Shown here piece by piece: positions 28,226 through 62,112 of a DNA stretch of 64,000 bases. Origin of the DNA: Falciphora oryzae (lineage: Eukaryota > Ascomycota > Sordariomycetes > Magnaporthales > Magnaporthaceae). How positions within the stretch are numbered: the first letter of the stretch is position 1; every line of letters begins with the position of its first letter. The stretch lies in contig JNVV01000058.1 of NCBI GenBank assembly GCA_000733355.1, forward strand, positions 62,001 to 126,000, given 5' to 3'. The position numbers and the translations under genes were made by a program. The notes beneath the pieces are model-generated. The model saw only the letters and a list, made by a program, of their open reading frames with translations, searched no databases and was not told where the DNA came from.

Positions 28226-29290
28226 ACGCCGACGACCGGCAAGTGCTGGTTTGCGCTGCCACACACGCACTACCCGCCTCCACGGCTGCCCCAAAATGGG
28301 GTCGGGCGTGCCAGCGGGCAGCTTTGTCCGGGACACCTGACACCAAGCCTGAAGCGGCTGGAGGTCGTGATCAACAGGCGCGACGGCCCCGAGGAGTATC
28401 CCCCGGACGTGCCGGTCGGCTTTACAAAAAAAACGAACTTCGAATGGAAGTCAAGCGAAACCACTCGTCTGCCCTTGTTGGCGAAAGCAGCGGCGACATT
28501 GGCCAACGTCGTAGCAAGCGCGGCATCCCCCAGACTGGGGGCCGAGTCCTCCGTGTCGATGGCATTCTAGCGAACGGTTGCCAATTACTGGCATTTCGAC
28601 GCGCTGCACACCTACACGATCTCTTTGTCGACTACACACCTCGAGGACTCGATGGAGGATTCGGAAGTCGAGGCTTATCTCGCCAAGCACAATGTTCTTG
28701 GATCCTGCCCGCTCTTCATGATCACGGGGATCACGGTCGGATACGGAGCCCTGAACAAACCTCCGAATCCAGAGAGGTTGGCGCCAAGTTCACCCCGCGA
28801 ATGTATGCAGAAGCGAAACCCCACTTCAGCCTGCCCGACGATCACGGGGAACCCCTCCCAGCTGAACACAAGCTGAACTCGAGTCTCGATGACCACTAGG
28901 GATCTCCCAGCGCTTGGTGGCACCAGCCTACACTTGGCTGCCGCCGTCGAGTCCCAAAGCACCCAGGAGACGACACAGGAGGCACAGGAGTTCATTTGGG
29001 CCGTCCGACTGGCCAAGATCAGCAAGAAGGGCGTCATCGACCGAAAGTGGTCTCCTCCCCCCCTCTCCAAAGGTGCGACATTTGGTATCGGTGCTGAGAT
29101 GGTAACAGAGGATCACATTAGGGAGCAGCTTGGACGTGAAGGGCTCGAAGATTTCGACTTGGTCGGGTTCGACGATGATGCTGGTTACTTTGTTATCTAC
29201 AGGGCTCGCCACCAAGCGAGATTCCCACAGCAGGCTGACCAGGGACTCAACCATAAAAAGTGGAGAAGGCGACCCCGCTTGCCCCGCTAA
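28226..29290 (+). pseudogene. Gasdermin-like pore-forming protein gene, locus A, decayed
   Basis: The frame reads TGKCWFALPHTHYPPP, then LTPSLKRLEVVINR, VANYWHFDALHTY, CPLFMITGITVGYG and, in a second exon from about 28900, DLPALGG and EFIWAVRLAKISKKG. These landmarks, in this order, are shared with the genes at 51.6 and 57.6 kb and fit fungal gasdermin-like proteins (HET-Q1, RCD-1). Family members permeabilise the plasma membrane after proteolytic release of a short C-terminal tail. The gene has no ATG where its relatives start (ACG codons instead), a TAG at 28568-28570, and an exon junction that does not keep frame. The stop fits a C-to-T change of a CAG codon. The S8 protease pseudogene follows on the same strand. 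Confidence 0.7.
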
Positions 29291-29432
29291 GGCTGGGCTG
29301 CTTGAATGTCCCAAAGAACTCATGGCATCGACCGACTACAACATGCAGGTGCCCTGGAACACAACAAAGAAGAATGCTGTTGATTGCGACTTCACGCGAT
29401 AAATAAATCGGCCGACATGACGTGAGCCAGTA

Positions 29433-32400
29433 TGGCAAACATAATGGCCGAGCGGGATATCATCTCCGTCGCAGTTGAGTTTATACGGGAGATCCGCGAA
29501 CGAGCAAAAGAACTAGAAACCGAGGGTGGCCTGAAAGCCGACTTCACAGCGATTGCCGTCCAGCTGGGATACGCCCAAGCACGACTGCAAAAGATGCAAT
29601 TCCCTCGATAACGATCTACGGAAGAGACTTCCCAAACTCCTGCGCCATCTGGATCGCATGGTTCAGGCAAGCAATTTTCTCTCCAAGTTCTCCTCCAAGC
29701 ACCTAGGTATTTGCTCCTGCATCGCTAACATCAGGTCCACCTTTGCTCTGATTAGTGGCCCGAAAAGTGGCCCGAGTCGAGGGCCCACAAGTCCAGCGTT
29801 TGCGACCGCCATACATACAAGGGGTTCCGGCGTTTGCAGATCGGGACAGTAGGAAGCATGCGCGAGTTCGCGACAAATGAGGCCGCCCGAAGAAGGCTCA
29901 AAAAAGCACTGCAGCGCATTGGGCCTCCACCCGCCGCTCAGCAGCAGATTTGCGTCCCTTACTTCATTCCTCTGTGCAGTCCCCTTCCATCTCGCGCGGG
30001 TTTTCTCAGGTATCTGGTGCCTAGCTGCCCGGGTAGGTCCCTGGTATCGAGGAGGATCCAAGTCTCAAGGTCAGTTCCAGAGACCGAGGGTCCTGCCAAT
30101 GTAAATTTCTGTTGAGTACCCCTCACTGAGCATTTTCCTTGCCCCTTGCCAACTTAGACCCCTCACTCCTGATTGGTGGGCGTGGGGAGCAACCAGGGGC
30201 CTCCCACGGAAGAAAAAAGGGCACTAAAAAAATCTTCATATCAAATCTAGCCAGGCCTACCATTTTCTTCTGCTCCTGCTGCGCCTTCATTCTAGCATCT
30301 CGGCCCAATACACAAAGGCTAATTGTTTTCCGCTTGTTCCAGTCTCTGTACACCTCCTCTCACCCTCCGCGGCAACACCACCGCTTACCGACGCGGCTCC
30401 GAGTGCAACCACAATTCCCGATGCCCGCCTCCCCTTGCAGATGCAGGCCGCGCCTAACGACTACCAGGAACACCTGGAGCTTCTCATACAATACTTTCGC
30501 GAATTTGCGTCTGCCCAGGGGACGAGACGCGGAGGATATCGGCAAACATCAGGTTAAGTGGTGAGCGGAAAGTGGAAGGGCAGAACGACACGGCCAAATT
30601 CGGCCTCCTGCTCCTTGGGCACCCTCATGACAGCACCACTCCGCCGCTATGACAGGCCATTTCCGTCTCGAATTTCTGCCACAATATCCTGGCCAAGCTC
30701 TCCCTGGGCCAGCTTCAACTGGCCGTATCAAATGGCACCTTGGTCCATCAACACCCCTTGCCCGCTGAGCGACCATACGCTTGCAAATCTACCAGCACCC
30801 CGTTGTCAAGCCCCCTCCAGTCGAAGCGTCTCTCCCAGAAGATGCGTCTTTGTCTTTGCCGCGAGCTTGTCAGTGGCGTCTGGCAGTTCTACGACTCGCA
30901 GTGGATGCAGACGCGGTGGACGAAGGACTCGGTGCACTTCATGTTTCAACAAAGGACAGGCATGGCTACCGAGATTTACGTCGACGACCCGCTGTTGTTT
31001 GCACCTTTCGACAAGAGCCCAGAAACCAATGACGAGGGTCGATGGCACCCGTTCCCAAAGATACTATCTCTCGGCATCATGCTCATGGAGATTGAGCTCG
31101 GGCTCGCCATCGAAGACTACTACCCCGAAGACTGGCGTACTCCCGACGGGAAGCCCGCGACCAACACCGATTACTTGACGGCTATGCAGCTCTTTAGGGA
31201 CGATTTGGGAACGGGCGAAGAAGGAAACGTACCCAAGCTTGAAGGGCGCGATAGGATGGTGCTTACAACCTGATTTTCAGCACCAAAATCCCGACGACAT
31301 GGCTGTTCAACGTGACGCTATTTACAGGATGGTGGTCGAGCCCTTGAAAGCACTCTACGGAAGCGCTTTTAAAGAGGAGCCGGGGATAGGAATACTACCA
31401 AAGAAGACAGGCTTACCTGATGCTGGGTGTCTGCTCCCCAGCGGAGCACGGCGGAGTAGCCCAGGCCATCCCCAACAATCCGTGACCCAAAGCCCCAAGC
31501 TGAAATCTAGGTATGGCCTAACCCCGATAAAAAAAAAAAAAAAAAAAAGTTAAGCTAGATGCCCTGGGAACTTGGATCAGACATTGGACTAATTTCTCCG
31601 TGGATCAACAGTGGGTTTCACGATGGTCAGGTAGCTGCTAATGAGTATGTGCACTCCCGCCTACACCCTCGCCATTGCTTCCGACGTCGGGCTAATACCT
31701 GTCAAGGGGTTCTGGGACATCACGGAGGCATGGTTCAGCCAGCTGGAATCTCTGAAAGCTGTGTTGCGACTCAAACCCAAGGACCGGAAGAAGGATGGAG
31801 ATGACTCCCCGCCGTCGAAAATCGCCATCTTGGACACGGGGATATCCAACAGCTATCAGGGGTACCCCTCGTCGATCAAGGGATGCCACGACTTCGTCAC
31901 CAACGGCCATGATACGCGCAACGACCTGACCGGGCACGGCACCAACGCGTTCCGGCTGCTGCGGCACGTGTACCCGGGGGCAGACATCTACGTCGGCAGG
32001 GTGTGGGAGGAAGACACAATGACGGACGCTACGCCGACGCTGATGGCACATGCGATCCAGCACGCGGCCAAGCAGTGGAGGGTCGACATAGCTGTCATCC
32101 CGTCGGGGTGTTCCAAAACGAGCATGAGCGCATCAGGCAAGCGGCCGAGGTTGCCCGGGGCGAGGACATGCTCATCTTCGCGCCGTCATGCAACTATGGG
32201 AACCTGGTCGGCGTCGCCTTCCCCGGCAGGCTGCACCGCGAGGGCCTGCTGCTCTGCATGTTCGCCACCGACACCTTTGCCCGCGCCACGCCGAGCTTCA
32301 ACCCGCTGCCGCCGTCCTGCTCTTCCGGGGGCTGCGCCTTCGCCGTCCTGGGCGAGGGCATCGTCCTCCCGGGCTCGGGCGCCGTCGAGGATGACGATCC

Positions 32401-32743
32401 GCAGCAGCGGCCCGTGCTGTCTGGGACGTCGTACTCGGCCGTGATCGGCGCGGCGCTCGCGGGTCAGCTGCTGGACTTTGCGCGGCACCCCGACGTGCGG
32501 GGACGGATCCGCAGGCCGGAGCGGCTGCCGCGCGTGCGCGGCATGGCGGCCGTGTTCGGCCTGATGTGCACCGGGCGGGCAGACAACGGGTATCGCTGCC
32601 TGCGGCCGTGGAGGATGCTGACGACAGTCTCGGCCGGCATCGAGGTGGAGGAGGGGAAGGATCGGCGGGCGAGGCGCGCGGCGGAGCGGGCGCGGGTGTG
32701 CGACCAGATCTCGATCGCGTTGGAGAACATGGACCGCGACTAA
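29433..32743 (+). pseudogene. DUF7580-like / S8 subtilisin-like protease gene, locus A, decayed
   Basis: The N-terminal exon starts MANIMAERDIISVAVEFI (29433) and breaks near 29600 by frameshift. A middle part (REFATNEAARRRLKKALQR at 29860; FGLLLLGHPHD near 30600, then a stop) and a DUF7580-like part (30840-31270: VWQFYDSQWMQTRW, SLGIMLMEIELG) match the intact S8 genes downstream. The S8 domain keeps all catalytic motifs: AILDTGIS (Asp about 31833), TGHGT (His about 31935) and SGTSYS (Ser about 32429), but changes frame once at about 32105-32112. A run of 18 A lies at about 31531-31548. The frame breaks make it a pseudogene. By analogy with HET-Q2 it would have cleaved the adjacent gasdermin. 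Confidence 0.75.
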
Positions 32744-33519: not shown

Positions 33520-36500
33520 TTATTTAAAAAGCCTCGCGACCAGCTCGTGCCCTTTCTCCGCGGCCAAATGCAACGCCGTGCACCCGTTGCCGTCCTTCGC
33601 CTCCTTGTCNNNNNNNNNNNNNNNNNNNNNNNNNNNNNNNNNNNNNNNNNNNNNNNNNNNNNNNNNNNNNNNNNNNNNNNNNNNNNNNNNNNNNNNNNNN
33701 NNNNNNNNNNNNNNNNNNNNNNNNNNNNNNNNNNNNNNNNNNNNNNNNNNNNNNNNNNNNNNNNNNNNNNNNNNNNNNNNNNNNNNNNNNNNNNNNNNNN
33801 NNNNNNNNNNNNNNNNNNNNNNNNNNNNNNNNNNNNNNNNNNNNNNNNNNNNNNNNNNNNNNNNNNNNNNNNNNNNNNNNNNNNNNNNNNNNNNNNNNNN
33901 NNNNNNNNNNNNNNNNNNNNNNNNNNNNNNNNNNNNNNNNNNNNNNNNNNNNNNNNNNNNNNNNNNNNNNNNNNNNNNNNNNNNNNNNNNNNNNNNNNNN
34001 NNNNNNNNNNNNNNNNNNNNNNNNNNNNNNNNNNNNNNNNNNNNNNNNNNNNNNNNNNNNNNNNNNNNNNNNNNNNNNNNNNNNNNNNNNNNNNNNNNNN
34101 NNNNNNNNNNNNNNNNNNNNNNNNNNNNNNNNNNNNNNNNNNNNNNNNNNNNNNNNNNNNNNNNNNNNNNNNNNNNNNNNNNNNNNNNNNNNNNNNNNNN
34201 NNNNNNNNNNNNNNNNNNNNNNNNNNNNNNNNNNNNNNNNNNNNNNNNNNNNNNNNNNNNNNNNNNNNNNNNNNNNNNNNNNNNNNNNNNNNNNNNNNNN
34301 NNNNNNNNNNNNNNNNNNNNNNNNNNNNNNNNNNNNNNNNNNNNNNNNNNNNNNNNNNNNNNNNNNNNNNNNNNNNNNNNNNNNNNNNNNNNNNNNNNNN
34401 NNNNNNNNNNNNNNNNNNNNNNNNNNNNNNNNNNNNNNNNNNNNNNNNNNNNNNNNNNNNNNNNNNNNNNNNNNNNNNNNNNNNNNNNNNNNNNNNNCCT
34501 TGTCGGCGCCCAGCTCCGCCAGCACCCTCGCGACCGCTTCGTGCCCGTTTTCGGCGGCCTTCGACAGCGGCGTTTGGCCAGCCTTATCCTTCGTTTCGAT
34601 ATCGGCACCGTTCTCGATCAGCAGCCGTGTGAACGCTTCGCAACCCTTTTCGGCGGCCCACCGCAGCGGCGTCCGACCGTTTCCATCCTTCGAGTCGACG
34701 TCGGCCCCTTTTTCGAGCAGCAGCTTAACGACGGCCTCGTGCCCGCTCCCGGCAGCTATCGATAATGGCGTGCGACCGTTCCCGTCCTTCGCCTCGACGT
34801 CGGCCCCCTTCTCCAGTAGCACCTTGACGATCTCGTCGTGGCCTGCGGATGAGGCGGCTTGGAGGGCGTTACCGTACTCGCCGTCCTGCGCGTTGACGTC
34901 CGCCCCCTTCTCAAGGAGCATTTTGACAATCTCGCTATGGCCTGCGGATGAGGCGGCAGCCAGGTTGGCCATGCTAGCCAGGGTATCGGTACGGTCGGCC
35001 CCGACGTCGTGTGCAGATTGCGAGACAATGGGAAATGGAGGTGGAGTGCTTGCCTCGTCTTGTCGGAGGCGTTGCGAGAATGCTTTGACAACGGATTGCT
35101 CCAGCCAGTCGGGTTCATTGAGCCCAGCTTGTTGCTTCCGCTTCTTGACGTCAAGCCATTGTTCGTTGATTGCGGCAACCAGGCGCGCGTCTTCGAGGTC
35201 CCAACCGGGAATGCTTTGAGCTGGGTCGGGCACGTCGTGTGAAGGAACTTGGCTCGACGTCTTGCAATCGCACTCGAGCCGACGACACACAATGTCAATC
35301 GTGTTGTGTGCGTCGGAATCCGAGTCGGAGTCGCCACGGTCGCTGCTGATATCCCTGCAGTATCCACGCACATCTGAACCCGCGTCGCTGCCAATGCCGT
35401 CGTCGTTGGTCCCTTCTGCCCTGATTGGGGCCAGAACCAAGGCAACAGATATCAGATGCGCCTTGACGTGGGCGATCAAAGCTTCCTGGGCCTGGGAGGA
35501 TTGGCGATCGGGGAACCGCTTCTCAATGTCCTCCGGGAAACCACCGCAGAACGGACAAGACTGAAGACCGCCCTGTTTTCGAATCATGCTATGCTTGACG
35601 AGGGCGGATCTGTGGGCATCGGAAACTGCGTGATCATGGTGTTCCCGAAGATGGTCGTCGAGCTCTCCCGGACTGGAAAAGGAAACAGTGGCCTGTGGCC
35701 CACAGTGCCAGCATCGCCATGTTGGCGGTGAGTGTTTGTCCTTCAAATGAGCAAGCCAGCCACTGTACGTGTCCGCACATGCGAAGGGCGAGGAGCAGTC
35801 TTCAAGCACGCAGAAGAATGGCTCAAAGTCGCGGATCAAGTGGTTCCTGGCCAAGAATAATCAATATCCATGCCGGGCGCGCTCTGTACTCCATTTGCAA
35901 GGACTTACCTCCACTGACCCCTTTCAAGCCTCTTAGTGCCTTGCCTTTTTTCTACCGTGGCATCCTGGTGTGCTGTCAAGGCGTCGTGATAGCTGTGCCC
36001 TGCTTCTCGGATGGGGCAAACAAGTAAGCAGTATGGACATGTGAACGAGAGTCCTCCTGGATCTAGATTTGGCATCTTGGGAAATTCGCCGTGCGAGACC
36101 TGAATAGACGAGACAGACTCGGGCCGTTCCGCTTTGAACGGAGCAGCTGCGCGCAGTCCTTTTGGCTCGAGTTTTGTGACCTCAGTGCTGGACAGGATGA
36201 TGCTGGGCTGGACACGGGAGTGGGACAGATCCATGTCGGCCCGTTGCGGCTCCGACTGGCCGACGTATTCTGCGGCATGTTTCTCTGTGCTTTCTTGTTG
36301 TTGCTGCATCGGCAATAGAGCTGGGGCTGGCTGGTTCAGTGTGGAAATCTTCATCTGATGGCGCTCCAGATACAGGAAACGGATCCGGCGTGAGGCGATG
36401 GACTCGGCGATGCGATCTACAAGGAAGTCCGGAGCTAGAGGGAACAAATACCTTGCCCTCTGAAGCGCATACTTCCGGAAAACGTCGAAGACTTGGGAAT

Positions 36501-37144
36501 ACGTGTTATGAGCGCGAAAACGCCGGATGCGTTCGGATCGATGCTGCGCGCTCGCGAGACGAAGGGTAAGGGATAGTTGGCGTAGACTGTTGATGGTGCC
36601 GCGAGCGGATGTCAGGGCGGCAGAAGGACCGTGTCCAGTATGCACAGCCTCCTGTTCCTTGACTGCTTTTGAGATGTCGAGACGACCGGAGGATACAGAG
36701 GATCGGTCAGATGAATCATCAGACTCGCTGCTGCAGGAAGCGGCATGATCCCTTCGCCCGTGTCCGCTGTCGCCCTCGGCCAATGCGTGGACTGTGCGCT
36801 CAGCCTTGTCAGCGCCTCTTCCGGGCGGGACTCGGTTCATGTTGACGATTACCCAGATGGCGCTGCAGTGCGTCGAGGAGCTGCCTGACGAGACTGGCAA
36901 TCTCGGGGACGTTCTGCAGGCGAGAAGCCAGCGAGTGCTGGCCTTGACGAAATATACCCATGTTGGCGGCCAAAATGTTGAAAGCCGCCGTCATCTCTTC
37001 TGTCTCGTATGTGGCGGCATTATCGCTGGCGGAAAGCTCGTGCAGAAGCTTCCGACATTGCACTGCAGAGTCTCTTAGGTCTGCCAAGACAGCATCGGAC
37101 GGCAAAGGTGCAATCTTCGCATCCTCGTCGTCGACAACGCTCAT
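33520..37144 (-). CDS. C2H2 zinc-finger / ankyrin-repeat protein, interrupted by an assembly gap
   Basis: Minus-strand exons 37144-36853, 36791-35909 and 35846-33520; both junctions keep frame. The first exon is a helical module (MSVVDDEDAKIAPLPSD...). The second carries a Ser/Asp-rich linker and the first zinc-finger cysteines (FTCPYCLLVCP). The third continues with PFFCVLEDC, RCWHCG and SCPFCGG, then ankyrin repeats (ADVNAQDGEYGNALQAAS and following). Four to five units are readable before the run of N at 34497, and one final unit after it ends VARLFK and a stop. With the N count as given, the frames on the two sides do not agree, so the gap size is probably not exact. The gene diverges from the S8 protease at 37765 across 620 bp. 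Confidence 0.75.
33610..34497. other. Assembly gap (888 N) inside the ankyrin array
   Basis: Only N bases. It lies within tandem 99-bp repeats, the likely reason assembly failed. Repeat number in this gene is therefore unknown. Confidence 0.98.
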
Positions 37145-37764
37145 GAGGACGGACGGGCGGGGTATGCAGCTAGCGTTGACGTCCTGTGATGCAGTGAGAT
37201 GAATGAAGACGATGACAAACTCAAGATGTCGAAGAGCCGTGCGGACCGTGCCTGAAAGATGCCGTAGTGGATGGGGTATCTGAGAATGCGCAAACGGATG
37301 GCAGGAATCAACAAAGGTCTGATGAAGAAGTTATCGTTGGATTGGCAAGCATGCCGTCTCGGTCGTGCTTGCATGCTGCGGCTGTGCCAGCACTGCAGGG
37401 TGGTGAGCTCGTCAAAACCCCCGCTTGTGCACATCGTGAAGTACCTACACAAAATTCATGGAGGGAATCAAGAGCGCTACATGGCTGCTGTCCATTGGCC
37501 TCCGGCGTGAGAGCGGGGTAGGGTGCAGCGAGTCCACGTCGTCTGCAGATCCTTGGCTGGTCCAATGAATTGATCCCATTCGTCCTGCCGCTGCCGTCCA
37601 GCCATAGATGAACACGACGGACATGGGTCCTGCTGATGGGAGGCAGCAGGAGCAGGTGCTGCTGAACCGACGAGGCTCCGACCGTCTGCAACCAAGCTCA
37701 GTTCACATTCCACGATGTCGCTACGAACTGTCTGACTAATGACGCCGGCACTGGCATCAGAATC
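37145..37764. promoter_or_regulatory. Shared upstream region of the C2H2-ankyrin and S8 genes
   Basis: 620 bp between two divergent starts. No convincing gene lies inside. It must contain both promoters; I could not identify specific elements. Confidence 0.4.
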
Positions 37765-40700: not shown

Positions 40701-40858
40701 GGCGTGGCATGCTGCGGGTACTGCTGAATCACATGCAACGCAAGCACATCAGCGGGCAGGAGAGTCTCCTCCCGTGGGACTTCCTTTGCCTGGACATGAT
40801 GGAGGAGAATAAGCTTCTGAAAAAGGTAGACGAGGCCATAAATGGAAAGCTGTCTTGA
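37765..40858 (+). CDS. S8 subtilisin-like protease with DUF7580-like N-terminal region, locus B, intact
   Basis: Exons 37765-38675, 38743-39654, 39719-40139 and 40214-40858 (962 aa), all junctions in frame. The N-terminal ~280 residues form a separate helical domain (YLRDIDLVVRLDNKKAAK; a CxC-containing WSCQCGG). The DUF7580-like middle has ILALGILLLEIERG and RRYIFDRILYPLEEALF. The S8 domain has Asp in AVLDTG (39858), His in DGHGSRV (40004), an oxyanion Asn in ATRNNGA and Ser in SGTSYATP (40574). There is no signal peptide, so it should be cytosolic, as expected for a HET-Q2-type activator. The gene ends 47 bp from the end of the gasdermin-like gene on the opposite strand. The loop before the catalytic His has WDWDWDCDG from a 6-bp tandem repeat. 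Confidence 0.88.
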
Positions 40859-40905
40859 GGCTAGGCGAACTGGATTTTTTCCAGGACTGGATGCGGGCAT
40901 GTGTC

Positions 40906-41718: not shown

Positions 41719-42289
41719 CGTCTGGGTGGTGCTTGTAGGCAGTTGCTGGTTTGGGAGTGTACAGGACACGGTAGGGTGGTCAAGGACGAATCGTGGGCCG
41801 GCTTCGTGGTGTCTGTCGGGGTTCGACGCTTCGAAAGGGTGAAGAAGACAAAGTTCAACGAGGAAACCCCGCCCACCATACACCACAGTCTGCAGCCAAC
41901 CCCAGCCTAGCTAGACGTTGAGGCTAGGCTGCAGCAAGGTGGGAATTTATGAAGCAGATTGGTCCAATTACGGTCTTATCTCTTATCGACTTTGCTGTTT
42001 CAAAACTGATCGCGAAGGAAGGCAGCTTTCACCGATTGGATGGACGTCGGCCACGATGACCGCAGGAGGTACCCATGAACTTCTGGCCGTGCAAGCTGTG
42101 GCGTATGCAGACTTGGCGGGGGTCCTTGTCCCTGGTTCCCCTTGATGCGACCATCGTGATCTGGTTAAATACGCCGACGTCCCCAGTTGCCAAGCACAGA
42201 AACCAAATACATCATGTACCTTCTCACTGCACCGGTGCATCTTCATCGTTCCGACTGACATAAACGGCGGCGGAACGCGCGGGCCGCCA
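41719..42289. other. No gene seen
   Basis: Upstream region of the locus B gasdermin-like gene; only short, unconvincing frames. Confidence 0.5.
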
Positions 42290-44280: not shown

Positions 44281-44311
44281 GCATCCAGTGTGCTCACCGG
44301 AGGCGTGAGTG

Positions 44312-51210: not shown

Positions 51211-51613
51211 AAAGACAGATAAGGATGCAAAGCAGTAGAATGGGCTGCTTTGGTCGGGCGTATCAACCTATGCAGGTGTAATTGGCCGTAGATAACGTAT
51301 CGCTGCTCAGCCTCAGCTGCACTTGGCAAACGACGGAATACCCCGCCTTTCGTGCGCTAATATTTGCTGTATTTTTCTTTTTTTTTTCTTTTTCTAGCGT
51401 GACAGAGGGGCAGTTAGCGGGAGAAAAGAGGGGTTTAAAGAGCTGAAGGGCAGGCTGGCAACCTCGTCATATGTCGATCTCTGCGCTCTATAGTCGCCTT
51501 TTCCTGGCCAACAAGACATTTTTTTCGAACCCGAAAATTTAGTTACTTAGCTCCTGATCACCTCCAAGACCAAGAACCTGCTGGTAGTTGCGTGATTCAA
51601 CTCTTTGCCCAAA
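51211..51613. promoter_or_regulatory. Shared upstream region of caspase and gasdermin genes, locus D
   Basis: 403 bp between divergent starts, with a strong pyrimidine tract on the plus strand near 51370-51400. It must hold both promoters, so co-expression of the pair is plausible. Confidence 0.45.
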
Positions 51614-52649
51614 ATGAATAAGTGCTGGTTCGTTCTCGAGCAGTCTTTCTACACACCCCCGGTCTATACCACTCCTTCCCGGGCCAGTGGCCAGACGGTG
51701 AGCGGCAACCTGCGTCTCGGTGATGTAGTGCCTAGCCCCAAGAACATCTACCCTGTGCTCACCCAGGGCGCCCTGCCGCGCTTCGGCCGCGAGATGCGCA
51801 TCACACCGACCCAGCTCGGCGAGTTCAAGTGGGACCAGACCCGCGAGCGCGAAGACAGCGCCAACGCCGGCGCCGGGGCGCCCATCGCGGCGGCCGCCGG
51901 CGCCACCCTGAGCGCTGAGATCAGCGCTGAGTTCAAGCGAACCATGAAGACATGGGCCAACTTCAAGACGCTCGACACGGAGGTCGTGCAGCCGAGTACC
52001 ACCTACATCGACGGGATCATCGCCCAGTCCGACGTGCAGAACCACATCGAACAGCACAAGACCCCGCTCCTAGACCGGTGGACCGTCTACATGATCATCG
52101 GTCTGATGATTGCGCGGGCTGGCGGCTCGATCGGCGGCTCCGAGACGAACTCCCAGACCTTCTACGGCAGCACCGACCTGTAAGTTTGCCGCCTGCCAGT
52201 TCATATGCTTTGGGGTAGTATTGGCATTTTATGCCCTGACCGTCTGCCCAACGGCCCACTTACTAATTTGTGTACACTTGTCTCCGGCTAGGGACATTCC
52301 CGGCGCCGCCAACTATAAAGTCGGCGATACGCACAAAAATAGTACAGAAACACACAAGTCAGCCCAGATCCAGGGCGATCGAGTGTGGGCCGTGCGATTC
52401 GCAAAGATCCATAAGGGGCTACTCCGCCGGAAGTGGATGCAGACGGAGGAAACGGCCGGCGCGGCGCTGGACGGAGACGACGAGGGCGAGGAGCAGGTCC
52501 AAAAGGTCCTGGAGCACGAGGGGCTGGGAAAAGCCAAGGTCATCGAGTGCCCGGCTGCCTTGGGGGGCACCGAGACGTGGTCCTTTGTTACGATGGCTCC
52601 CGACGCGACGCAAGATGCTTGGCCTCCTATCCCAGGGCACACGCCCTGA
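51614..52649 (+). CDS. Gasdermin-like pore-forming protein, locus D, intact
   Basis: Exons 51614-52179 and 52292-52649 (307 aa), in frame. It starts MNKCWFVLEQSFYTPPVY and continues with LRLGDVVPSPKNIYPVL, ISAEFKRTMKTWANFKTLD, TVYMIIGLMIARAGG and, after the intron, DRVWAVRFAKIHKG. This order is that of fungal gasdermin-like proteins such as HET-Q1 and RCD-1, which oligomerise into membrane pores. A flexible Gly/Ser/Asn-rich linker crosses the intron, and an acidic tail (DGDDEGEEQ) precedes the C-terminus. In HET-Q1 a short C-terminal segment is removed by the partner S8 protease; a similar cut here is inferred. It is flanked by the caspase gene (divergent) and an S8 gene (convergent). Confidence 0.82.
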
Positions 52650-52732
52650 CTTTCTCCTATGGAAGTGCTGTGTAGGTAGTAGTAACTAGCTGTGTGGAGA
52701 CCTATATCCAAATAGAGAAACCTTGACACAAT

Positions 52733-52820
52733 AAAGGAAAAGGAAAAGGAAAAGGAAAAGGAAAAGGAAAAGGAAAAGGAAAAGGAAAAGGAAAAGGAAA
52801 AGGAAAAGGAAAAGGAAAAG
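52733..52820. repeat. (GGAAAA)n microsatellite
   Basis: About 14 perfect hexamer units in the 204 bp between the convergent ends of the gasdermin and S8 genes, in their 3' flank. Confidence 0.97.
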
Positions 52821-52853
52821 TGGAAAGGGTCATAACAAGTTCCCATGCATCAT

Positions 52854-55800
52854 TCAGGATCGCCCGGCCTGACTGAGCTTCTTGGGCTGCAGCAGCCGCT
52901 CGATGGTGCCCCGGATCCAATCCCGCTGCTTCTTCCGCGCTACCTCCTTGGGCGTCACCGCAAGGGCGTCCTCGCTCTTCAGCAGCGACCACGGCTGCAG
53001 GCAGAGGTACCCGTTGTCGCAACGCGCCATCTCCCGGAACACGCCCCGCATGTGCGGCCGGCTGTCGAGCCGGGAGAGGATGGACCCATCGTCCTTGACC
53101 CGGTCCTGCCGCGAGAAGTCAAGCAGCGCGGCCGCCAGACCCGCCGCGATCGACGTCGAGTACGAGGTGCCGCGGCGCAGCGAGTGGCCCTCCTCCACCT
53201 CAACGCCCTCGCCGAAGACGGCGAAGCTCTCGCGCAGCGGCGCCGGGTTCAGCGAACGGGACTCGCGGATGCCGGCGTCGGTCGAGAAGATGCCGAAGAC
53301 CTGGTCGGTCACGTTGGCGGGGCAGTACACGTCGTTCAAATTGCGCTCGTTGGAGGCTGCCGAGAAGATGAGGATGCCTTTTCTGTGCGCCCGGTCGATC
53401 GCCTGCACCACGGGTGCTTGCTCCTCCTTGAAGCCGATGGCCATGGTGATGATATCTACCTTTTGCAAGATAGCCCAGTCAATGCCCTAATTAGAGCAAA
53501 CGGGGGGGTTCATAGGTTAGCCAATTTAGGTGGAGTGGGCAGGGCGAGGACGTAGTTGGTCGAGAGGGTCAACGAGGGATAGAGGGAGGAGTCCTCACCT
53601 TGACTATTAAGTTGACATCGTTCCGCGTCGCGACATTTTTCTTGAGCACTCTAGCTACGCAGTAAGTTGCGTTTGGGCACATCTTTTCCACGAGCAATAC
53701 AGCGGCGGACCCATGACCCGTGCCGTCGCTGGTGGTGTCCTTATCCGGACGAGCCGTGTCGACAAAGTCCTCATACTTCAAAGTGCCGGGGTAATCTTTA
53801 TAATAGTCATAGAGGTCCTGCCTAATGCCGGTGTCCAATATGGCAATCTTGACGGCTTCGTAACCCGGCTTCGTTTCGGCAGAGCTCGGCTGCAGAACGT
53901 TTCGGAGTTCTATATACCGCTCGAACCACTTCCGCGAGTCGTCGCGTAACCTTGGCCTCGTCAGCCAAGCCAGATCAACGGAGCATGCACGGTGGCTAGG
54001 ACGGACATACTTATTATTCTCTGCCGCATCGGCTGGGGGGTTCGCCTGAGAGGCTGTCTCGCGTTGATTCGGCGGTCGCTCAGGTCTGGGCCCGGCTGGC
54101 GCATCCGAGACCTCGTACAGAGGTTTGATGCGGTCGAAATCGTCATATCGTGTTGCCCAGTCTTCCAGGGGGCGAACCAGCTCGCTGTAGATAACAGACC
54201 GCAGGGCATTCTGCTTGTTGACTTGGGAAGCGGATTTGGCCAAGCCCCGAGCACTAAGATTCTCCCGGATCTTGCTCTCGAGGCTCCCTGGCGTGATGCA
54301 AAGAGGCAAGATCTTCTTTAGGGGGGAAAGAGGCTCTATGTCGGGTATGATACTCTCACTCGAATCCGGACCAGTAGCGGTGAGTTTGCAGGCGATTTTG
54401 TAATCGGTGTTGATACCAAACGGCCCCGGGGGGAAAAGCCGGGGGTTTTCCCGGTACTTCCTCATGGGTTTCCGGGTCTCTAGCTCCAAGAGTAATATAC
54501 CGAGCGCGAGGATCCGGGGCATGTCATGAATGGTCTCCGTACTCGGGGTGGCTGAGCGGTTGTCAGACTTACCGTCCCCGGTGCTTGTGCCATCCTTCTT
54601 CGTGTACTGGATCAGCAGCATTGGTTCGTTGATGAAGACTCCTGTTTTTCCGAATCGCCTCTCGCAGATAAATTGCACACTTTCGCTCGTCAGCCCCTGG
54701 GCGAGGAGGTCGGAGTCGTAAAATTGCCACGTCGCCTTGGCCGCCAGCATCGCCAGGATTGCCTTGGACTTGTCAAGCAGATACAGATCTGGCCTGGCGA
54801 GGATGCTTGCCAATGGTACAGCCTCTCCATGAGCTAGCCATTCGCGGCTCACATTGCCTCGTCTATGATATACCAATTTGTCATCCCGCGTGGATAGGTG
54901 CAACAGGTCCTGGTCGCGATGGCTAATGTGCTTACAGAAGCCCTCGAAGGGAATGCAGTCGCGTTCAGCTATCGCCGCCGTCGCGAGCGTATCCGTAGCC
55001 CCGGGCGCCAAGTCTTCATCAGTAACTTGTCTGTTATATAGTCAGCGGGGACACAGCTGATTGCCCAAAAGGGTGGGGGATGCTTTGGTATGTGGCATAC
55101 ATGGTTGGAACCTCAGGATCAGGAGGGGGGACTTCGGGGCATGTCTGGATGCTAGCCTCTTGCCAGAAGCCTAGATTTTCGTGCGGGTGGTCGAGGAATA
55201 GAACGCCGAATTCCGCCGAAGCATTTTCTACCAAGAATCCGACCGAGGCACCGCCTGCCGCGAGGTTTCTGTAGCCGTTGAGCCGGAGGTTGGTCACGAT
55301 CTCGCCAGGTGATGAATCATTCTGGCACGACCGATACTGCTGCAGAATTTTGTAGAGGGACTTGGTGGCCTCGTCGAGCTCGTGGCTCTTATGGGGTGCT
55401 GGGGAAGTCGCCGAGGCATCGTTGTTCTGCGCCACTTCGGCCGCCTCCTGCTTCCAAGTCGCTGCCGAATAGTTCTTTAGTTTCTTTATCGCATTCGCCC
55501 TGTAGTCCTTTTGTTCGGGGTCCACGGCAACATTGCTAAGGCATTTCTTTGCCTTTTCTCTAGATTGAACGAATCGGAGAGCCCTGAGCGTGGGCCACGG
55601 ATTTGACTGTGTTTGCTGACTCGGACGTGGCCACTACGTTTAGATCAGTCAGATTTGCTCCTTGGCTTGAATACTGAGAACGCCGCAGGATGCAAAAGCC
55701 TTGCGTCATGGCGCATCTTCATCTCCCAAGAACCCAGCCAGCGGGAGGGGGGAAGAGCCACGAATATCCGAGGGAGCATCTGGGCTTCTGGACACTTGAC

Positions 55801-56113
55801 AGGCCGATGTACAGGCAGACAGCCAGGCAAACCAAAGAAAATGAAGACACACGTTGCATAACCTCTCCAAGTTCTTTAGCAGGCTTTTCACCTTCTGCAG
55901 CTGAGCCTCGTCTTGCCTCTGGTCCGGCCTTTTCAGCTCCGTTTTGACGCCATCCAGGGCGCTGCGAAGGTTTCTGCAGAACGGCTTCGCGGCCTTGTCG
56001 CCGCTCACGATAATGGCCTGCGCAATATCTCGTACACTGTCGATCGAACTGATGGCGAAGGCGGTGACATCCGGGCTGCTCGGGGCGCGCGCCCGCGCTC
56101 TGTATTCTGCCAT
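52854..56113 (-). CDS. S8 subtilisin-like protease with DUF7580-like N-terminal region, locus D, intact
   Basis: Minus-strand exons 56113-55853, 55606-55101, 55030-53599 and 53486-52854 (943 aa), all in frame. The N-terminus is helical (FAISSIDSVRDIAQAIIV). The DUF7580-like part has FGVLFLDHPHENLGFW, ATWQFYDSDLLAQG and ILALGILLLELETR. The S8 domain has Asp in AILDTGIRQD (about 53833), His in GTGHGSAAV (about 53713), a likely oxyanion Asn in SAASNERN and Ser in RGTSYSTSIAAG (about 53163). No signal peptide, hence probably cytosolic. It is convergent with the gasdermin gene 204 bp away, as expected for a HET-Q2-like partner. The intron 55607-55852 is the longest of the four. Confidence 0.87.
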
Positions 56114-56499
56114 GTCGGCAGCTGCAACTCAACCACAGCCGGGCAACTTCGTCCAGAGCCAGGGCAAGAATGCCGCGAATTTGAGGGGCTCTCAGCCGCA
56201 TCAAACCCCACCCGAATTCGTCATGTGCATGCTCACGTGATGCGAGTCAGCAGCTGCTAGTGCCGACGACCAGGGGTTTACAAGAGGCAATCATCTCGGT
56301 CGACACGGTTGGGCGGCGACAGGTACGGCCGCAGCCCTACAACACCGCAGTCACGACGCGGCTGCGCAACACGACCGCTGTTTGCGGAGCACAATCTAGC
56401 AAGTAGATCAAGCGTCAAGTCGCGTCAAGCCCGAGGACAGGTCTCTAGACGCTCCCAACCGCGTTAGACAGACGACGGAGTTATGGCTGGCGGGATTGG
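56114..56499. other. No gene seen
   Basis: 386 bp between the start of the locus D S8 gene and the C2H2 stump of locus E. Nothing recognisable. Confidence 0.5.
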
Positions 56500-57257
56500 C
56501 TAACAGTGTGTGCGCAGGCCTCCATGTCCTCCGCTCAAAGACTGTGGCCGAGCGCCGCGCGTTCCGGCCCGACGACTAGCTCCCATCGCTGCCGTCTGCC
56601 GCCGCATCCCACATGGCTCGGCAAGCCCTACAAGGACCGGATTTATCAAGAATATTCGGAATTTTGCAAGCTCGCCTGCTCTTCCGGCTTGGAGCTTGTC
56701 TGCCCGTTCGTGTCTGAATTTGGTGCCGGACTTTCGCATGGCAGCAGAAATCTTGGCTAGGGAATCCACCGATGATTTGATGTAGTAAAACTGCTCTCCG
56801 AGCTTTGAGTCCTCATCGGGGAGTTGGGAATTCCGAGCGCCGGTCGTATCTGTCTCTTTTTGCTCCGGATTTAACATTGAGACCCCTATTCGTGCGTTCT
56901 CGGGGTCGGCCTGCGCTGTTTTCGCTAGCCACTTCGGTCAGCACGGTTTCTTGGACCGAATGCGGCCAACATACCAAGCTCGATACAATTCCGCAAAGAG
57001 ATGGTCAGGCTGTCGAGAAGGCTGATGAAGAGGTCGCGCACGTCGTTTCGGGTCCGGACGCGATAGTCCAGCGATGATCGCCCGCGCCTTTCCGCGCTGA
57101 TACCGAGAGACCACCAGTTGAATCCGGCAGACATCATGTCGATGAAGTCGCCTCCGGATAGGACTCGATACTGCTGGCAGTCTTCGAACAGAGATTGGCA
57201 GATCCCAGCTCTACCGGAGATTGCTGTCGCATCCTCCGCATAATCGGGAAGAGACAT
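56500..57257 (-). pseudogene. Truncated C2H2-family gene: N-terminal module only, locus E
   Basis: Exon 1 runs 57257 to about 56974 (MSLPDYAEDATAISGRAG ... SAGFNWWSLGISAE, SLDYRVRTRNDV); after an intron ending at about 56883 the second exon reads MLNPEQKETDTTG and IKSSVDSLAKISAAMRKSG, then KFRHERADKL, and leaves the family pattern near 56640 before a stop at 56500. The same N-module opens the WD40 gene at 7.3 kb and the caspase gene at 51.2 kb. Zinc fingers and any C-terminal domain are missing. It is divergent from the gasdermin gene at 57625, exactly where locus D has the caspase gene. Confidence 0.65.
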
Positions 57258-57624
57258 GATGACGACTTGGGGGCCTTGTACGGGGGGTGCTGGTGTTGGA
57301 TGACGTTTGCGATCTTTTCGGGCGGGCAGCAAAATGTGTGGTCGTTGCGATTGCACATTGCGGGGTCGACCAAATTGCCTGCTTGCCTGCTCAGCTGAGA
57401 TACGCCCCACACAGCAGTCAACGAGACAGGCTGTTGCCCGAGCCCGCATGCGGCTGCGTTGATTGGTTTCTGCCTGATCAGCACCGCACGAGGCATGAGC
57501 TCTCTGCTGTCGTGCGGGCTCCCTCTTTCCCCGTCTTGTATCGACAGACTCTCCGTTGACAAAACGGGATAGCAGCGGGCTATGAAGCCGGCAGAAGTCA
57601 AAACCCACGTGTAAGGTCGTCAAT
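57258..57624. promoter_or_regulatory. Shared upstream region, locus E
   Basis: 367 bp between the divergent C2H2 stump and the gasdermin start; presumably both promoters. No specific element was identified. Confidence 0.35.
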
Positions 57625-58609
57625 ATGGACAAGTGCTGGTTCGTCCTCCGCCAGACGCACTACACGGCGCCCGTGTACGCGTCCCCGAGCATGGCCTTCG
57701 GCAGGGCTGAGGGGCCGCTGCGGTTGGGGCACGTGCTGCCCGGGCCCAGGTCGGTCGACAACATCATCAACACGGGCGGGATCATGGACTTCCACAAGGA
57801 CATGCGCATTACGAAAACAAACACGGTCGATTTTCGCTACTCCCAGCAGGCCGAGCGGGCCGCCGAGGCGAACGCCGAGGGCGGATTCCCCATCGCCGCC
57901 GGCGGTGTGATGGTCAACGTCGACGCCGGCGCCATGTTCCGGCAGATGATGGGCGACACCTGGCAGATCGACCGGCTGGAGACGCAGATCATGCAGCCGA
58001 CGCTTGCCTACATCGAAAAATGCCGCACGTCAACCGAGGTGGCGTCCTGGATCGCCACCCACAAAACGCTGGGTGCCTGGAAAATTTACATCATCACCGG
58101 GTTGATGATCGCCCGCGGGGCCAGAAACGAGAGGACCGAGTCGAGCGAAAGAGGTGCGAATGCCGGCACCGGCGTGTGAGTATTTTTGCTGTCGAGTTAC
58201 TCTCGAGTCGATGCGGCTTCACACCTTAACGCCGCCAACTTGAGGCGAAAGCTGACGACTTTCTTCCGCTAGTGACCTCCCGGGCATTGCGACTGGTAAA
58301 GTAAGTGCCAGACACGCGACCAAAAACGAGGCTGCGGTTTCGGGAGAACACGAGGATGATTTTGTGTGGGCGATCCGCCTTTCGCTCATTTCCAAGGGCA
58401 TTTTCGGCAACACCGTGGAGGTGGAGCCTTACACGAAGGGAGCTGTTTTGGCACCGAGCCCGAGAAAGTCGACGCGAAAGCCGTCCTCGCCGAAGAAAAG
58501 CTGCTCGATGACGATGTACACTCCCTTGAAGTGCTCCAAGTTGATTCGGTTAAACCGGAGCAACAATTCTTTGTCACAATCGATGGCCTGTAGGGAAGCC
58601 AGTCGTTAA
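57625..58609 (+). CDS. Gasdermin-like pore-forming protein, locus E, with frameshifted C-terminal tail
   Basis: Exons 57625-58175 and 58273-58609 (295 aa), junction in frame. It starts MDKCWFVLRQTHYTAPVY and shares LRLGHVLPGPRSVDN, QIDRLETQIMQPTLAYIE, WKIYIITGLMIARGA and DDFVWAIRLSLISKG with the locus D protein. From about 58440 the encoded tail becomes Ser/Lys-rich (SPRKSTRKPSSPKKS) and unlike its relatives, while the neighbouring frame gives an acidic tail (EEKLLDDDVHSLEVLQ) that ends at 58593 and looks like the family. A 1-nt indel between about 58436 and 58455 would explain this. In this family the C-terminal tail is the inhibitory part, so the change may matter. Confidence 0.75.
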
Positions 58610-58714
58610 GTCGTCACCAAAGTTCGGGGGGGCCCTTGTTATAGTTTGGAAATGTCACAATATAACTACCCCACCACAGAGATCTAGCCATGCGTGACTC
58701 GAAATCATCCGAAC

Positions 58715-59094
58715 TGTAACACCCCCATGGGACAGGAAGGCCCAGGCCTCTCGATAGAGGTCGGACCCCTCTAGCATGGCCGCCACCGCACGAACAGCAA
58801 TGTTCAGACGTTGTAGAGCGTTGACCCTAGCGTGTTTCAGCACTCCAGCTGAGATGATAGAAGGGACGGGACTCTGTTCATAACGGCGGGCCTGAAAGAC
58901 CCTTTGGAGAAGGGAATCTGGAGGGCAAGCTACCGGTTCTGTTTCCACTTCTATTTTCTGTTTTTGTTTCCACATCATGATCGTACGAATCTACCCAATA
59001 AACGCACCATCTCAAAAACCAACCTTGACGGCCGAGTGCCCTGAACCTCTGAGATCTCCCTGCGGGAACCCCTTCTAGTGCATAGCACGTTACC
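58715..59094 (-). repeat. Solo LTR, copy 3, at the stop codon of the locus E protease
   Basis: On the minus strand it runs from GGTAACG (first base differs from the TGTAACG of copy 2) to TGTTACA. A 5-bp direct repeat CGAAC flanks it (58710-58714 and 59095-59099, plus-strand reading), a target duplication. The body matches copies 1 and 2. Confidence 0.8.
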
Positions 59095-62000
59095 CGAACT
59101 CCCTGTCGATGCCCATGCAGATTCTCTGGCAGATTTCATTCCTCGCGCCCTTGTATTCTCTCCGGGCAAACCGGATGGCTGACATGGGATTTGGTTCCGC
59201 AGGTCTGTGGGCAGAAGATCCCATGGCCGTACGCAGTGGAATGGATTGTCGATTGTCCGCAAGGCCAGAAAAACCAGAACTCCCATAAACCCGTGCTTGC
59301 TCTTCAGTTTTTGAGCTTTGTCTCCGAACTTCGCCTTTGTGTCGCTATGTCGCGAGAAGTCCAGCAGCCTCGCCGCAAATCCGGCGGCGATAGCGGTCGA
59401 ATACGACGTTCCGGAATTCACCTCGTCGTGTACGTTTTTGATATCCTCGCCGAGGATGGCGAAGTTGTGCTTTCCCGGCCCTACAGACGGATTCAAATCG
59501 GACTTTTTGACGTTTCCATCGGTTGCAAACATGGGGAGCACATCCTCATACGCGGCGGGATAGAGTATCTTGTGTTTGTTGCCTTCGTTGGTCGGCGCAG
59601 CAATAAGAAGCATCTTGCAAGAGGCCTCCCGGACTTTGTTGTAGAATGTTATGTCGTTTTCGAAGAAGCCGCATGCCATGCAGACGACGTCCATGTTGTT
59701 GGCTATGCACCAATCGAGAGCCTACGTCAAAGCGGTTCATGATCAATGGCAGTCTCCAACACCAGAAGCTGTCGAAACTTACCTCAGCTGCCAGGTGCTG
59801 GGTGTTATTGACTGCAGTGTCTTTCTCAAAGATTCTCAGGGCGTACACGTCAGCGGACTCGCACATGTCGAGGATGAGACGAATCGAAGTCGTCCCGTGT
59901 CCGGTGTTGTCGCATTTCACGCCGTCCTTTCGGCTCACGAAGTCTTTGTAGCCTTTAATGTAGTCGGCCTCGGCGTGGTCCGGATGGACGCCCGTATCGA
60001 GGACCGCGACCTTGACCTTCTCGTATGTGTCCTCGTCTTCGTCCCGGGCCTTGAGAATATGGATGAGACTGCGCATGCGACTGAACCAATCTTCGGTCGT
60101 CTTCGAGTTCGTGCTAGGGACTGTTAGCGTGTGGATGACAGCCGAGGCCGCGGGGGTAATACATTTGTGCCATCGCTCGTCCGCACCGAAGCTCATCATT
60201 TGGACGTTCCAGCGGCGAGCGCTGAGGCGCTGCTGGCGTCGGGGCCGGCGCCTTCCAGTTCGAGGATATGGCGTCGGGCAGACTCAACGGCCGCACATTG
60301 TGAGGTCGCCGTTTAGAATTCCAGAGCTCTAGCCGGCTGACCAAGTCGTAGAGAACCGGCCGGATGTCATCACCGCTCAAGCTTCTAACGCGGGGTGGCA
60401 TGAAGATTTGTTTGGGAAGTATACAGTTGGTAATGAGGTTGGAAAGGGGAACCGATGTGTCCTTGGTCTCATATATATGTTCTTTCTCGATGAGGTCCTT
60501 GCAGATGCTGTAGTCGGTGTGGACGTATGCAGTCCCTTTGGGGCAGTGGTGCGAGAACTTTCGGTCGGTGTACAGACTCTCGATGGGCCGTCCCAGCTGT
60601 ATTTCCATGAGCATGACGCCGAGAGCCAGTATTTTGGGGAGCGGATGAGCCGCTTGGAAGGGGAAGATTGGGGCTGGGCCCTTGGAACGCAAGAAACCAC
60701 CGCCACCGTTTTCATCCTCTCTGTTCTGTTTCCTGTCGGAGCATGCTTCGGCCGCCTTGGAGTTGGACGGCTCGGGGGCTGATATCGAAACCGACAGGAG
60801 GGGTTCGTCTACAAAGATACCGGTGAGTTCTTCGTTCTCGAATCGTCGTTGCTCGAAGATGAAATGCACCCTGTCCTTGGTCCACGGCTCGACCATCCAC
60901 GGCGAACTGTAGTACTGCCATACCGCCTTTGCCAAGAAGACGGAGAGGACCTCTTTCTTCTTCTCCGAGAAATCCTCGACGGATACCCTCTCCAACAGGT
61001 CCCGCAGAGAGATGCTGGGTTCATCCACAACCCACCGTCTCGGCCTGCCGGAATCGCAACGATCGAGGAACAGCCTTTTTTCGGGGCTTTTGTTGTTGCG
61101 CGAGACTTTGCTAACAGACACTCCAGTGACTGAGAAGTACTGAATCATCGGACCGAACTCCTGTTGAAGTGTGATGAAGTAGCAGAAGCTGCTATTCAAT
61201 GCGGATTCCAACCTAACCTCTACTCGGGAATCACTACCCGGCTGGCCGCCTTCGGTTTGCCTAATCGGACTAGTTAGCAGAAACACGACCCGGGTGCGAG
61301 GATGGTGGAGCTAACACGGTCCGGTACAGCGAGATTTCCGTGTCCTGCCACCAGGGCCGGGGCTCCATCCCGGCCGTATGCTGATGGGGATGATCCATGA
61401 AGAGCACGCCGAAGGTGACTTTGGAGTCGTCGGGGTTGCTGCTGCTCAACCGGACGCACGCAGCCGTCGACCGATGGGGCTGTTCCTCGATGCAGAAGCA
61501 GTGGGTCGAGAGGGTGCTGTGCAGGGTCAGGATCTCCCTCCCGCACTCAGGCGCTGCTCCGTTCTCGGCTTGCACGACGGTATTGGATAGCGGGGAAAAG
61601 ACTCCGGAGTTCGCCGAGTCCGGAGTCATGCCTTGGTAGTCTTCCAGACGTCTGAGAAGCCGTCTTCGGGCGCCTGCGCGCTCATCGCTGTTAGCAAATT
61701 CTTTGATGGCTTTCGTCGCGCTCGCGGGATCCTCCAAGAGCAATACAAGAGCCAGGTAACGAAGTCCAGTCCCTGCCAACCCCGTGCCGGACTCGGTTGG
61801 GGGAGCGACAGGGTCGGTTGAGTGTCGCGGCTATGAATGAACACCGGTCAGCCGAGTCTGAGAATTGCCGCGGCACATGCTGCATACCTGGCAGAGCTTC
61901 TCGAGGTCAGTCAACAAGTCGGAAGCTTCCTCTCTGGAGCTCTCGGTGTCGGGTAGTTTTTGAAACCGCGGAACGATGTGGAAAAGTGTCGTTTGAACAG

Positions 62001-62112
62001 CGTTGCAGAACTGGTGGTAGCCAGGGTTCGCATGCGAGCATAAATCGTTCACGACGTCCTGTAGCCGCGAGGACGCCTCGCGGGCGAACTGAAGTGGAGA
62101 CATCGGGAACAT
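58975..62112 (-). CDS. S8 subtilisin-like protease with DUF7580-like N-terminal region, locus E, 3' end altered
   Basis: Minus-strand exons 62112-61888, 61791-61328, 61260-60187, 60113-59783 and 59721-58975 (946 aa), all in frame. Landmarks are as in locus D: FGVLFMDHPHQHTAG, AVWQYYSSPWMVEPW, ILALGVMLMEIQLG; S8 Asp in AVLDTGVHPDH (about 59997), His in TGHGTTSI (about 59898), Ser in SGTSYSTAIAAG (about 59405). The last part differs: from about 59185 the reading frame yields an unrelated tail that runs into the LTR and stops at 58975, while the neighbouring frame (AIRFARREYKGARNE) looks like the family and stops at the LTR edge. So the catalytic domain is intact but the C-terminus is frameshifted and about 40 residues are LTR-derived. 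It is convergent with the gasdermin gene. Confidence 0.83.

Follow-up and report, generated by a model that had tools for sequence, protein, structure and literature searches.

Putative three-gene cell-death units of receptor-like, kinase-like protease and gasdermin genes in an island of Falciphora oryzae

Fungal gasdermin genes paired with genes for S8 (subtilisin-type) proteases are a published kind of locus. Two reviews (PMC10989679, PMC10197012) put protease linkage at ~80% and the average number of gasdermins at five per genome, some species having more than 20. In HET-Q1/HET-Q2 of Podospora anserina and in Q2L clusters, the gasdermin gene lies beside an S8 gene; HET-Q2 is a 388-residue S8 protease, and the 40 residues that follow F238 are reportedly removed from HET-Q1 (PMC10989679). 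RCD-1 of Neurospora crassa is reported to act without cleavage (PMC12881547). Here, we analyse four gasdermin genes (G1 to G4), each with an S8 neighbour, in a 64,000-nucleotide stretch of Falciphora oryzae contig JNVV01000058.1 (C58:62001-126000; assembly of 50.18 Mb in 123 contigs). This whole stretch is referred to as the window, and coordinates given without a contig are those of the window.

Other described systems share parts of this arrangement. Fungal NOD-like receptors (NLR) with S8 or CHAT domains by gasdermin genes (PMC9815663, PMC12881547) likewise combine receptor parts and a protease at one locus; in those, the protease is inside the receptor protein, whereas here the receptor parts are in a separate gene, except for receptor 3, which has a Peptidase_C14 (C14) part. 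The accessible parts of PMC12258605 list 57 zinc-finger NLRs in Sordariales, 34 of the C2H2 type, and the word gasdermin was not found in that text; the fingers there are mostly C-terminal (52/57), whereas the finger-like pattern described below follows the N-module. Compared with mammalian NLR–caspase-1–gasdermin D and RIPK3/MLKL, the constant partner here is subtilisin-type rather than a caspase, and we do not claim common descent.

The reading that we favour, with a probability of about 0.58, is that the array is an island of three-gene cell-death units, each made up of a receptor-like gene, a gene for a DUF7580-S8 protein and a gasdermin gene. Its observed basis consists of homologies, adjacency, protease motifs and three-part co-diversification, with linkage, census and co-diversification all drawn from this one assembly. 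Beyond the published pairs, this genome shows a third, receptor-like gene that co-diversifies with them and has a kinase-like domain as common partner, and it groups old units in an island. Compared with HET-Q1/HET-Q2 as described in the consulted sections, the DUF7580 domain lies ahead of S8 in 15 of the 18 gasdermin-S8 pairs genome-wide, most loci add the receptor-like gene, and a single island holds four divergent pairs. A 2025 review (PMC12881547) named what activates the putative sensors of these pathways as a major open question. Should the linked gene prove to be the sensor, receptor, protease and gasdermin could be taken from a single locus as a matched set for joint testing. The 18 matched pairs of this one genome also make it possible to ask which protease cuts which gasdermin, and why.

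Gasdermins and their protease neighbours

A preliminary description, made from the letters of the window, had proposed four gasdermin-like genes, each beside an S8 gene, as in HET-Q1/HET-Q2. All four places indeed encode gasdermin-like sequence (Table 1). In phmmer searches against PDB chains, exon 1 of G4 (57625-58176, +) and of G3 (51605-52180, +) matched RCD-1-1 (8jyz) with E 4e-32 and 2e-23, respectively, and the G1 pieces 28226-28567 and 28571-28795 (+) matched RCD-1-2 (E 2e-12) and RCD-1-1 (E 2e-7), so that RCD-1 is the best PDB match of all three genes. G2 (query 40906-41850, −) matched HET-Q1 (9uv9) with E 1.9e-6 and RCD-1-1 with E 9e-4. Profiles of the two subfamilies cross-match, with G2 recovered by the RCD-1-like profile (E 1.5e-13) and G4 by the G2-like profile (E 9e-13). 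The N-domain fold was examined for G2, the predicted structure of which (mean predicted local distance difference test (pLDDT) score of 69, alignment of 44 rows) aligns in Foldseek to the RCD-1 pore 8jyz (E 2e-13; template-modelling (TM) scores 0.58/0.66), followed by bacterial, Trichoplax and mammalian gasdermins, as the preliminary description had anticipated for the gasdermin fold. The exons of G3 join across a GT-AG intron.

Table 1. Features of the window. Receptor-like genes are inferred, their open reading frames (ORFs) being joined by order and strand only.
Feature	Position	Strand	Remarks
Receptor A	4597..7464	−	N-module 7033-7464; finger-like pattern and WD40 ORF 4597-6039
DUF7580 ORF	8685..9587	+	Pfam PF24476, E 1e-18; head-to-head with receptor A
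PNP_UDP_1 ORF	15089-16177	+	Pfam; start of an NLR-type gene in the island
NPHP3_N/NACHT-ankyrin ORF	16155-18746	+	Pfam; after the PNP_UDP_1 ORF
DDE transposase ORF	24044-25456		Between left units and G1
G1	28028..29287	+	RCD-1-like gasdermin; broken, in-frame TAG 28568-28570
S8-1	30653..32740	+	DUF7580 30653-31550; S8 31635-32441 and 31913-32740 in two frames; broken
Receptor 2	34499..37330	−	N-module 36812-37330; 35905-36900; ankyrin 34499-35854; gene continues into unread sequence
S8-2	38726..40855	+	DUF7580 38726-39655; S8 39249-40223 and 40214-40855; head-to-head with receptor 2
G2	40906..41715	−	HET-Q1-like gasdermin; single open frame, 269 aa
Receptor 3	45643..51267	−	N-module 50650-51267; 49395-50729; finger-like pattern and C14 45643-49722
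G3	51614..52649	+	RCD-1-like gasdermin; likely exons 51614-52179, 52292-52649
S8-3	52857..56128	−	N-terminal ORFs, DUF7580, S8; convergent with G3
S8-3 pieces	55709-56128, 55037-55633, 53572-55041, 52857-53486	−	ORF pieces, no splice model
Receptor 4	56503..57659	−	Only N-terminal parts seen; head-to-head with G4
G4	57625..58606	+	RCD-1-like gasdermin; likely exons 57625-58175, 58273-58606; tail out of frame with respect to relatives
S8-4	58978..62142	−	N-terminal ORFs; DUF7580 60117-61310; S8 59549-60283 and 58978-59721; convergent with G4
IMS (impB/mucB/samB) DNA polymerase ORF	63231-63854		E 5e-14

S8 sequence adjoins each of the four gasdermin genes, and the proposed parallel with HET-Q1/HET-Q2 holds. 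Above the Pfam cut-off are the S8 parts at 40250-40858 (+) beside G2 and at 58975-59694 (−) beside G4, and that beside G3 (53118-53489, −) was picked up in the genome scan; S8-1 (31.6-32.7 kb, +) is below the cut-off in Pfam, but the S8 parts of both right-hand protease genes match it (E 8e-16 and 4e-16). The S8 gene is in tandem with the gasdermin gene at G1 and convergent with it at G2, G3 and G4. The Asp, His and Ser motifs can be read in S8-2, S8-3 and S8-4, and are split over two frames in S8-1. In all four proteases, S8 is preceded by DUF7580, which looks like a degenerate kinase-like domain: kinases occupy all 50 of the 50 rows listed when its model was compared with known structures in Foldseek, and the HRD and DFG strings are each missing from 12 of 14 DUF7580 sequences, the remaining ones being without demonstrated register.

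Genome-wide, three protein queries (E ≤ 0.01) located at least 19 gasdermin places, which is a lower bound; given that some species are reported to have more than 20, this genome is gasdermin-rich but within the known range. The 15 places outside the window all match local profiles with E 4e-10 or better. The local profiles, including that of the N-module, were seeded from members of the same loci, and E-values of the seed rows are therefore meaningless; independent support comes from single-sequence searches and Pfam scans. Prior to proximity counts, hits for gasdermins, S8, DUF7580, CHAT, C14 and the third gene were merged by hand into places (63 S8 hits into 53 places and 32 DUF7580 hits into 29). 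An S8 place from the genome scan lies within 5 kb of 17 of the 19 gasdermin places, compared to 1.1% expected, and adding S8-1, found by single-sequence search, brings the S8-linked loci to 18 of 19. The co-occurrence with S8 genes thus recurs across this genome, the exception being a locus on C70 (L012, 4034-9273), where a gasdermin in two ORFs is accompanied by an N-module gene and a downstream protein kinase ORF, with no S8. Conversely, DUF7580, S8 and N-module ORFs are found at C31:378500-388300 (L028), where the local profile found no gasdermin at E 1.

A cleavage site is predicted in the tails of most of the gasdermin sequences compared. Among 108 sequences (104 homologues and the four from the window), 83 contain a P1-like motif located 28-65 residues from the C-terminus, a count made with a fixed pattern and no chance control. 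The residue at the motif is F in 52, Y in 25, L in 5 and I in 1, and the median tail length is 39 residues. Lacking the motif are 25 sequences, among them models of exon 1 only, the pieces of G1 and G3 and several distant proteins of full length. In G2, the motif is VKGAVY, followed by a 40-residue tail, resembling the short tail of HET-Q1 after a hydrophobic residue, and G4 also matches the fixed pattern.

The receptor-like third gene and co-diversification

The caspase-like neighbour claimed in the preliminary description is present, as Pfam recognizes Peptidase_C14 in ORF 45640-49713 (−) with E 1e-11 and the His and Cys motifs are visible by eye. However, it is not simply a second protease gene: its first ORF (50650-51267, −) carries the N-module of a receptor-like family and resembles ORFs that lie head-to-head with G4 and at most gasdermin loci. 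The first Met of this gene, receptor 3, is ~0.4 kb from the ATG of G3, head-to-head.

Three queries located this third-gene family at 20 distinct places in the genome. A DUF7580 place is within 10 kb of 19 of them, an S8 place within that distance of 14 and a gasdermin place of 13, with no CHAT or DUF3435 place as near to any. When the three query loci are excluded, DUF7580 is close to 16 of 17 places and a gasdermin close to 10 of 17; reciprocally, a third gene lies within 10 kb of 21 of the 29 DUF7580 places. By strand, 15 of the 20 third genes are head-to-head with the DUF7580/S8 gene and 3 of the 20 with the gasdermin gene. With the local profile, the N-module was detected at 15 of 19 gasdermin loci, including that on C70. 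A finger-like pattern, Y-x-C-n-C ... W-x-x-H, is present in nine third-gene ORFs. Other parts identified by Pfam are NACHT at C12 (L021), NPHP3_N and ankyrin at C17 (L023), TPR at C15 (L024) and HEAT at C2 (L013), and those in the window are WD40 (4.6-6.0 kb), ankyrin (34.5-35.9 kb) and C14 (45.6-49.7 kb). No nucleotide-binding (NACHT or NB-ARC) domain was seen in receptors A and 2 to 4 of the window, one of which runs into unread sequence. Given that these part types are those of fungal NLR-like receptors, the third gene is a natural candidate for the sensor. In the literature searched, we found neither the third gene nor the kinase-like domain reported earlier; Clave et al. 2022 is known to us through reviews, so that a prior report is possible. 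At the C12 locus, a DUF2278 ORF (L001:2023-3111, −; E 2e-37) lies ahead of the N-module.

The three partners vary in concert. Distances among gasdermins correlate with those among their S8 neighbours across 18 pairs (r 0.77, a value reached in 0 of 20,000 permutations), with r 0.79 for the 14 pairs outside the window, 0.72 for the 13 HET-Q1-like pairs and 0.92 for the five RCD-1-like pairs (p 0.036). Similarly, N-module distances follow those of the gasdermins (15 loci, r 0.77) and of S8 (14 loci, r 0.71), again with 0 of 20,000 permutations in either case. This pattern fits partners that duplicate and diverge together, and because they do co-diversify, the diverging specificities suggested in the preliminary description are plausible.

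The same description called the locus expanded. Random placement of 19 loci yielded four within 34 kb in 0 of 200,000 trials (bound 5e-6, with gene density ignored), but local tandem expansion is not supported: the array gasdermins are only 18-37% identical (their S8 neighbours, 23-35%), and for G1, G2 and G4 the nearest relatives lie on other contigs. The closest relative of G1 is on C7 (43% for gasdermin and S8 alike), that of G4 on C12 (53% for both) and the closest gasdermin to G2 on C52 (27%); yet the gasdermin nearest to G3 is its neighbour G4 (37%), with the S8 closest to S8-3 on C12 (32%). In a tree of RCD-1-like exon 1 sequences, which leaves out G1 and G2, G3 and one unnamed protein fall outside a group holding G4, the C12 gene and sequences from Trichoderma, Apiospora and Sordariales. 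The low identities, the relatives on other contigs and the tree suggest that the units are old, and the array is best read as an island of old units rather than a recent tandem expansion. A fungal defence island was offered as a hypothesis in a 2023 review (PMC10197012, section 15), and the array is a concrete candidate for one.

Proposed mechanism and competing explanations

From the above, we infer a signalling order, a cleavage, pores and a trigger. The receptor-like protein (N-module, often a finger-like pattern, and NACHT, ankyrin, TPR, WD40, HEAT or caspase-like parts) would sense a non-self or damage cue and engage the DUF7580-S8 protein, a degenerate kinase-like domain fused to a subtilisin-type protease. 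The S8 part would then cut its own gasdermin ~40 residues from the C-terminus, after the hydrophobic residue in G-[A/T]-x-[F/Y/L], and the freed N-domain would form pores, resulting in cell death. A more specific version, namely, split inflammasome-like loci in which N-module receptors, a RIPK-like pseudokinase DUF7580-S8 protein and a gasdermin co-evolve as a cognate set, gathered in islands comparable to the defence islands of bacteria and able to cross fungal orders, with DUF7580 as the common adaptor also for receptors whose effector is not a gasdermin, is tentative. In our judgement, it falls short of even odds once the weakest places of the third gene and the absence of finger calls are taken into account.

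Several points weigh against the three-gene units. The main caveat is that the queries favour near relatives, so that family members remote from gasdermins may have been missed; furthermore, the evidence base is a single genome, and the co-diversification could arise by joint inheritance alone. There is no gasdermin match within 10 kb of 7 of the 20 third-gene places and no third gene within 10 kb of 8 of the 29 DUF7580 places; four of the 20 third-gene places rest on E 0.001-0.01; and the local profile did not find the N-module at G1, L004, L010 and L014. Pfam named no finger domain in the scanned third-gene ORFs, and ten third-gene or downstream ORFs have no Pfam part (L001:1056-2246, L002, L003, L005, L008, L012:6605-8233 and L025-L028). 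A homotypic link between the receptor N-module and the protease N-terminus was rejected, since the protease N-terminal pieces matched only protease ORFs, and nothing in the N-module, at E 0.1. For DUF7580, the predicted structure is of low confidence (mean pLDDT 53) and has zero Foldseek matches below E 1e-3, and the profile matches are below significance. Finally, there is the reported action of RCD-1 without cleavage (PMC12881547).

The alternative that survives best is that only the published two-gene unit is functional, with the S8 protein acting as both sensor and activator and the receptor-like gene being an independent immune neighbour. The consulted sections of two reviews describe two-gene clusters with the protease protein as the sensor (PMC10197012, section 15; PMC10989679, section 4), HET-Q2 is an S8 protease of 388 residues, and no third gene was detected at 4 of the 19 gasdermin loci. 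Nevertheless, we consider this explanation unlikely in view of the proximity of nearly all third-gene places (19/20) to DUF7580, the head-to-head orientation of 15 of these genes with the DUF7580/S8 gene and the co-diversification of the N-module with both partners.

More doubtful still is the possibility that G1, G3 and G4, like RCD-1 of Neurospora, act through antagonistic alleles that meet without cleavage, with their S8 neighbours being relics or serving other gasdermins. Such a mode of action would be consistent with RCD-1 as their best match and with its reported independence of cleavage. However, the five RCD-1-like gasdermins (G1, G3, G4 and those on C7 and C12) each have an S8 neighbour, the distances of which track those of the gasdermins, and G4 and its relatives carry a C-terminal motif resembling the one found in the other subfamily.

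As to decay, unit 1 (G1/S8-1, 28-33 kb) is broken, G1 by an in-frame TAG and S8-1 by a frame break, and in unit 4 the receptor gene is short and the gasdermin tail altered, changing frame with respect to the relative P0001. The breaks in unit 1 and the frame change in G4 had been overlooked in the preliminary description; they may stem from sequencing error. In units 2 and 3, ORFs without splice models reveal no break in either the gasdermin or the protease gene. These lesions, together with the DDE transposase at 24.0-25.5 kb, could signify that most of the array consists of immune genes in decay that do little at present, but this is improbable considering the full open frame of G2 and its 90% identity to a Gaeumannomyces hyphopodioides protein, the joining of G3 over its intron and the motifs kept by S8-2, S8-3 and S8-4.

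Possible transfer, flanking genes and related loci

Judged by the TSR1 protein (L016), the host is in or near Magnaporthaceae, close to Gaeumannomyces: among the best 120 of 1917 matches, identity is 93% to Gaeumannomyces tritici and 79% to Pyricularia grisea, compared to 71% to Cercophora sp. LCS_1 and 70% to Lasiosphaeria ovina of the Sordariales. The G2 match in G. hyphopodioides (Magnaporthales) is as expected from vertical descent, and P0103, a protein of G. tritici, resembles by eye a gene model in which S8-2 and G2 are fused, suggesting that the pair may be kept in that species. By contrast, G4 is 91% identical to a protein of Cercophora newfieldiana (Sordariales), far above the ~70% of TSR1, which makes transfer the simplest reading and G4 a candidate for a gene that crossed fungal orders. 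In the tree, G4 is in a clade of five rows at 97/96, including two named Sordariales proteins; however, the inner forks are weak (80/78, 81/73 and 88/75), two rows of the clade are unnamed contigs, and TSR1 of C. newfieldiana itself is not among the named matches listed. Another possible cross-order case is a Colletotrichum kahawae fragment (P0049), which shares 86% identity with G2 across 64% of its length, compared to 62-64% for two other Colletotrichum proteins.

Toward the left of the island, the DUF7580 ORF next to receptor A has no S8 or gasdermin beside it in the genome scans. The same combination of DUF7580 with a nearby receptor-like gene and no S8 or gasdermin match is found on C67, C55, C20, C32 and C15 (463 kb), and DUF7580 may also serve other effectors. 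Within the NLR-type gene at 15089-18746, ARAGORN calls a tRNA-Pro on the opposite strand (17288-17372), which is probably spurious. On the right, the IMS polymerase ORF apparently flanks the island. The possibility that the array is Starship cargo was rejected, as none of the ~13 DUF3435 places of the genome is on C58.

No CHAT partner was found for the C14 gene of the window, none of the 15 CHAT (PF12770) matches in the genome being on C58. The window C14 part is closest to C14 genes on C78 and C53, which adjoin CHAT genes. Six of the nine Peptidase_C14 places lie within 10.5 kb of CHAT (C41, C53 and C78, L018-L020; C9 twice; C59), five of the six head-to-head by strand. These could represent a two-caspase gene pair separate from the gasdermins, for which we found no earlier report in the literature searched.

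Two other gasdermin loci have neighbours of their own. An ORF with a HET domain (L026:3142-4113, +; E 3e-16) is near the gasdermin locus on C27, and a second small cluster, on C2 at 44-55 kb (L013, L014), comprises two gasdermin-S8 pairs within ~9 kb, with one N-module/HEAT gene between them.

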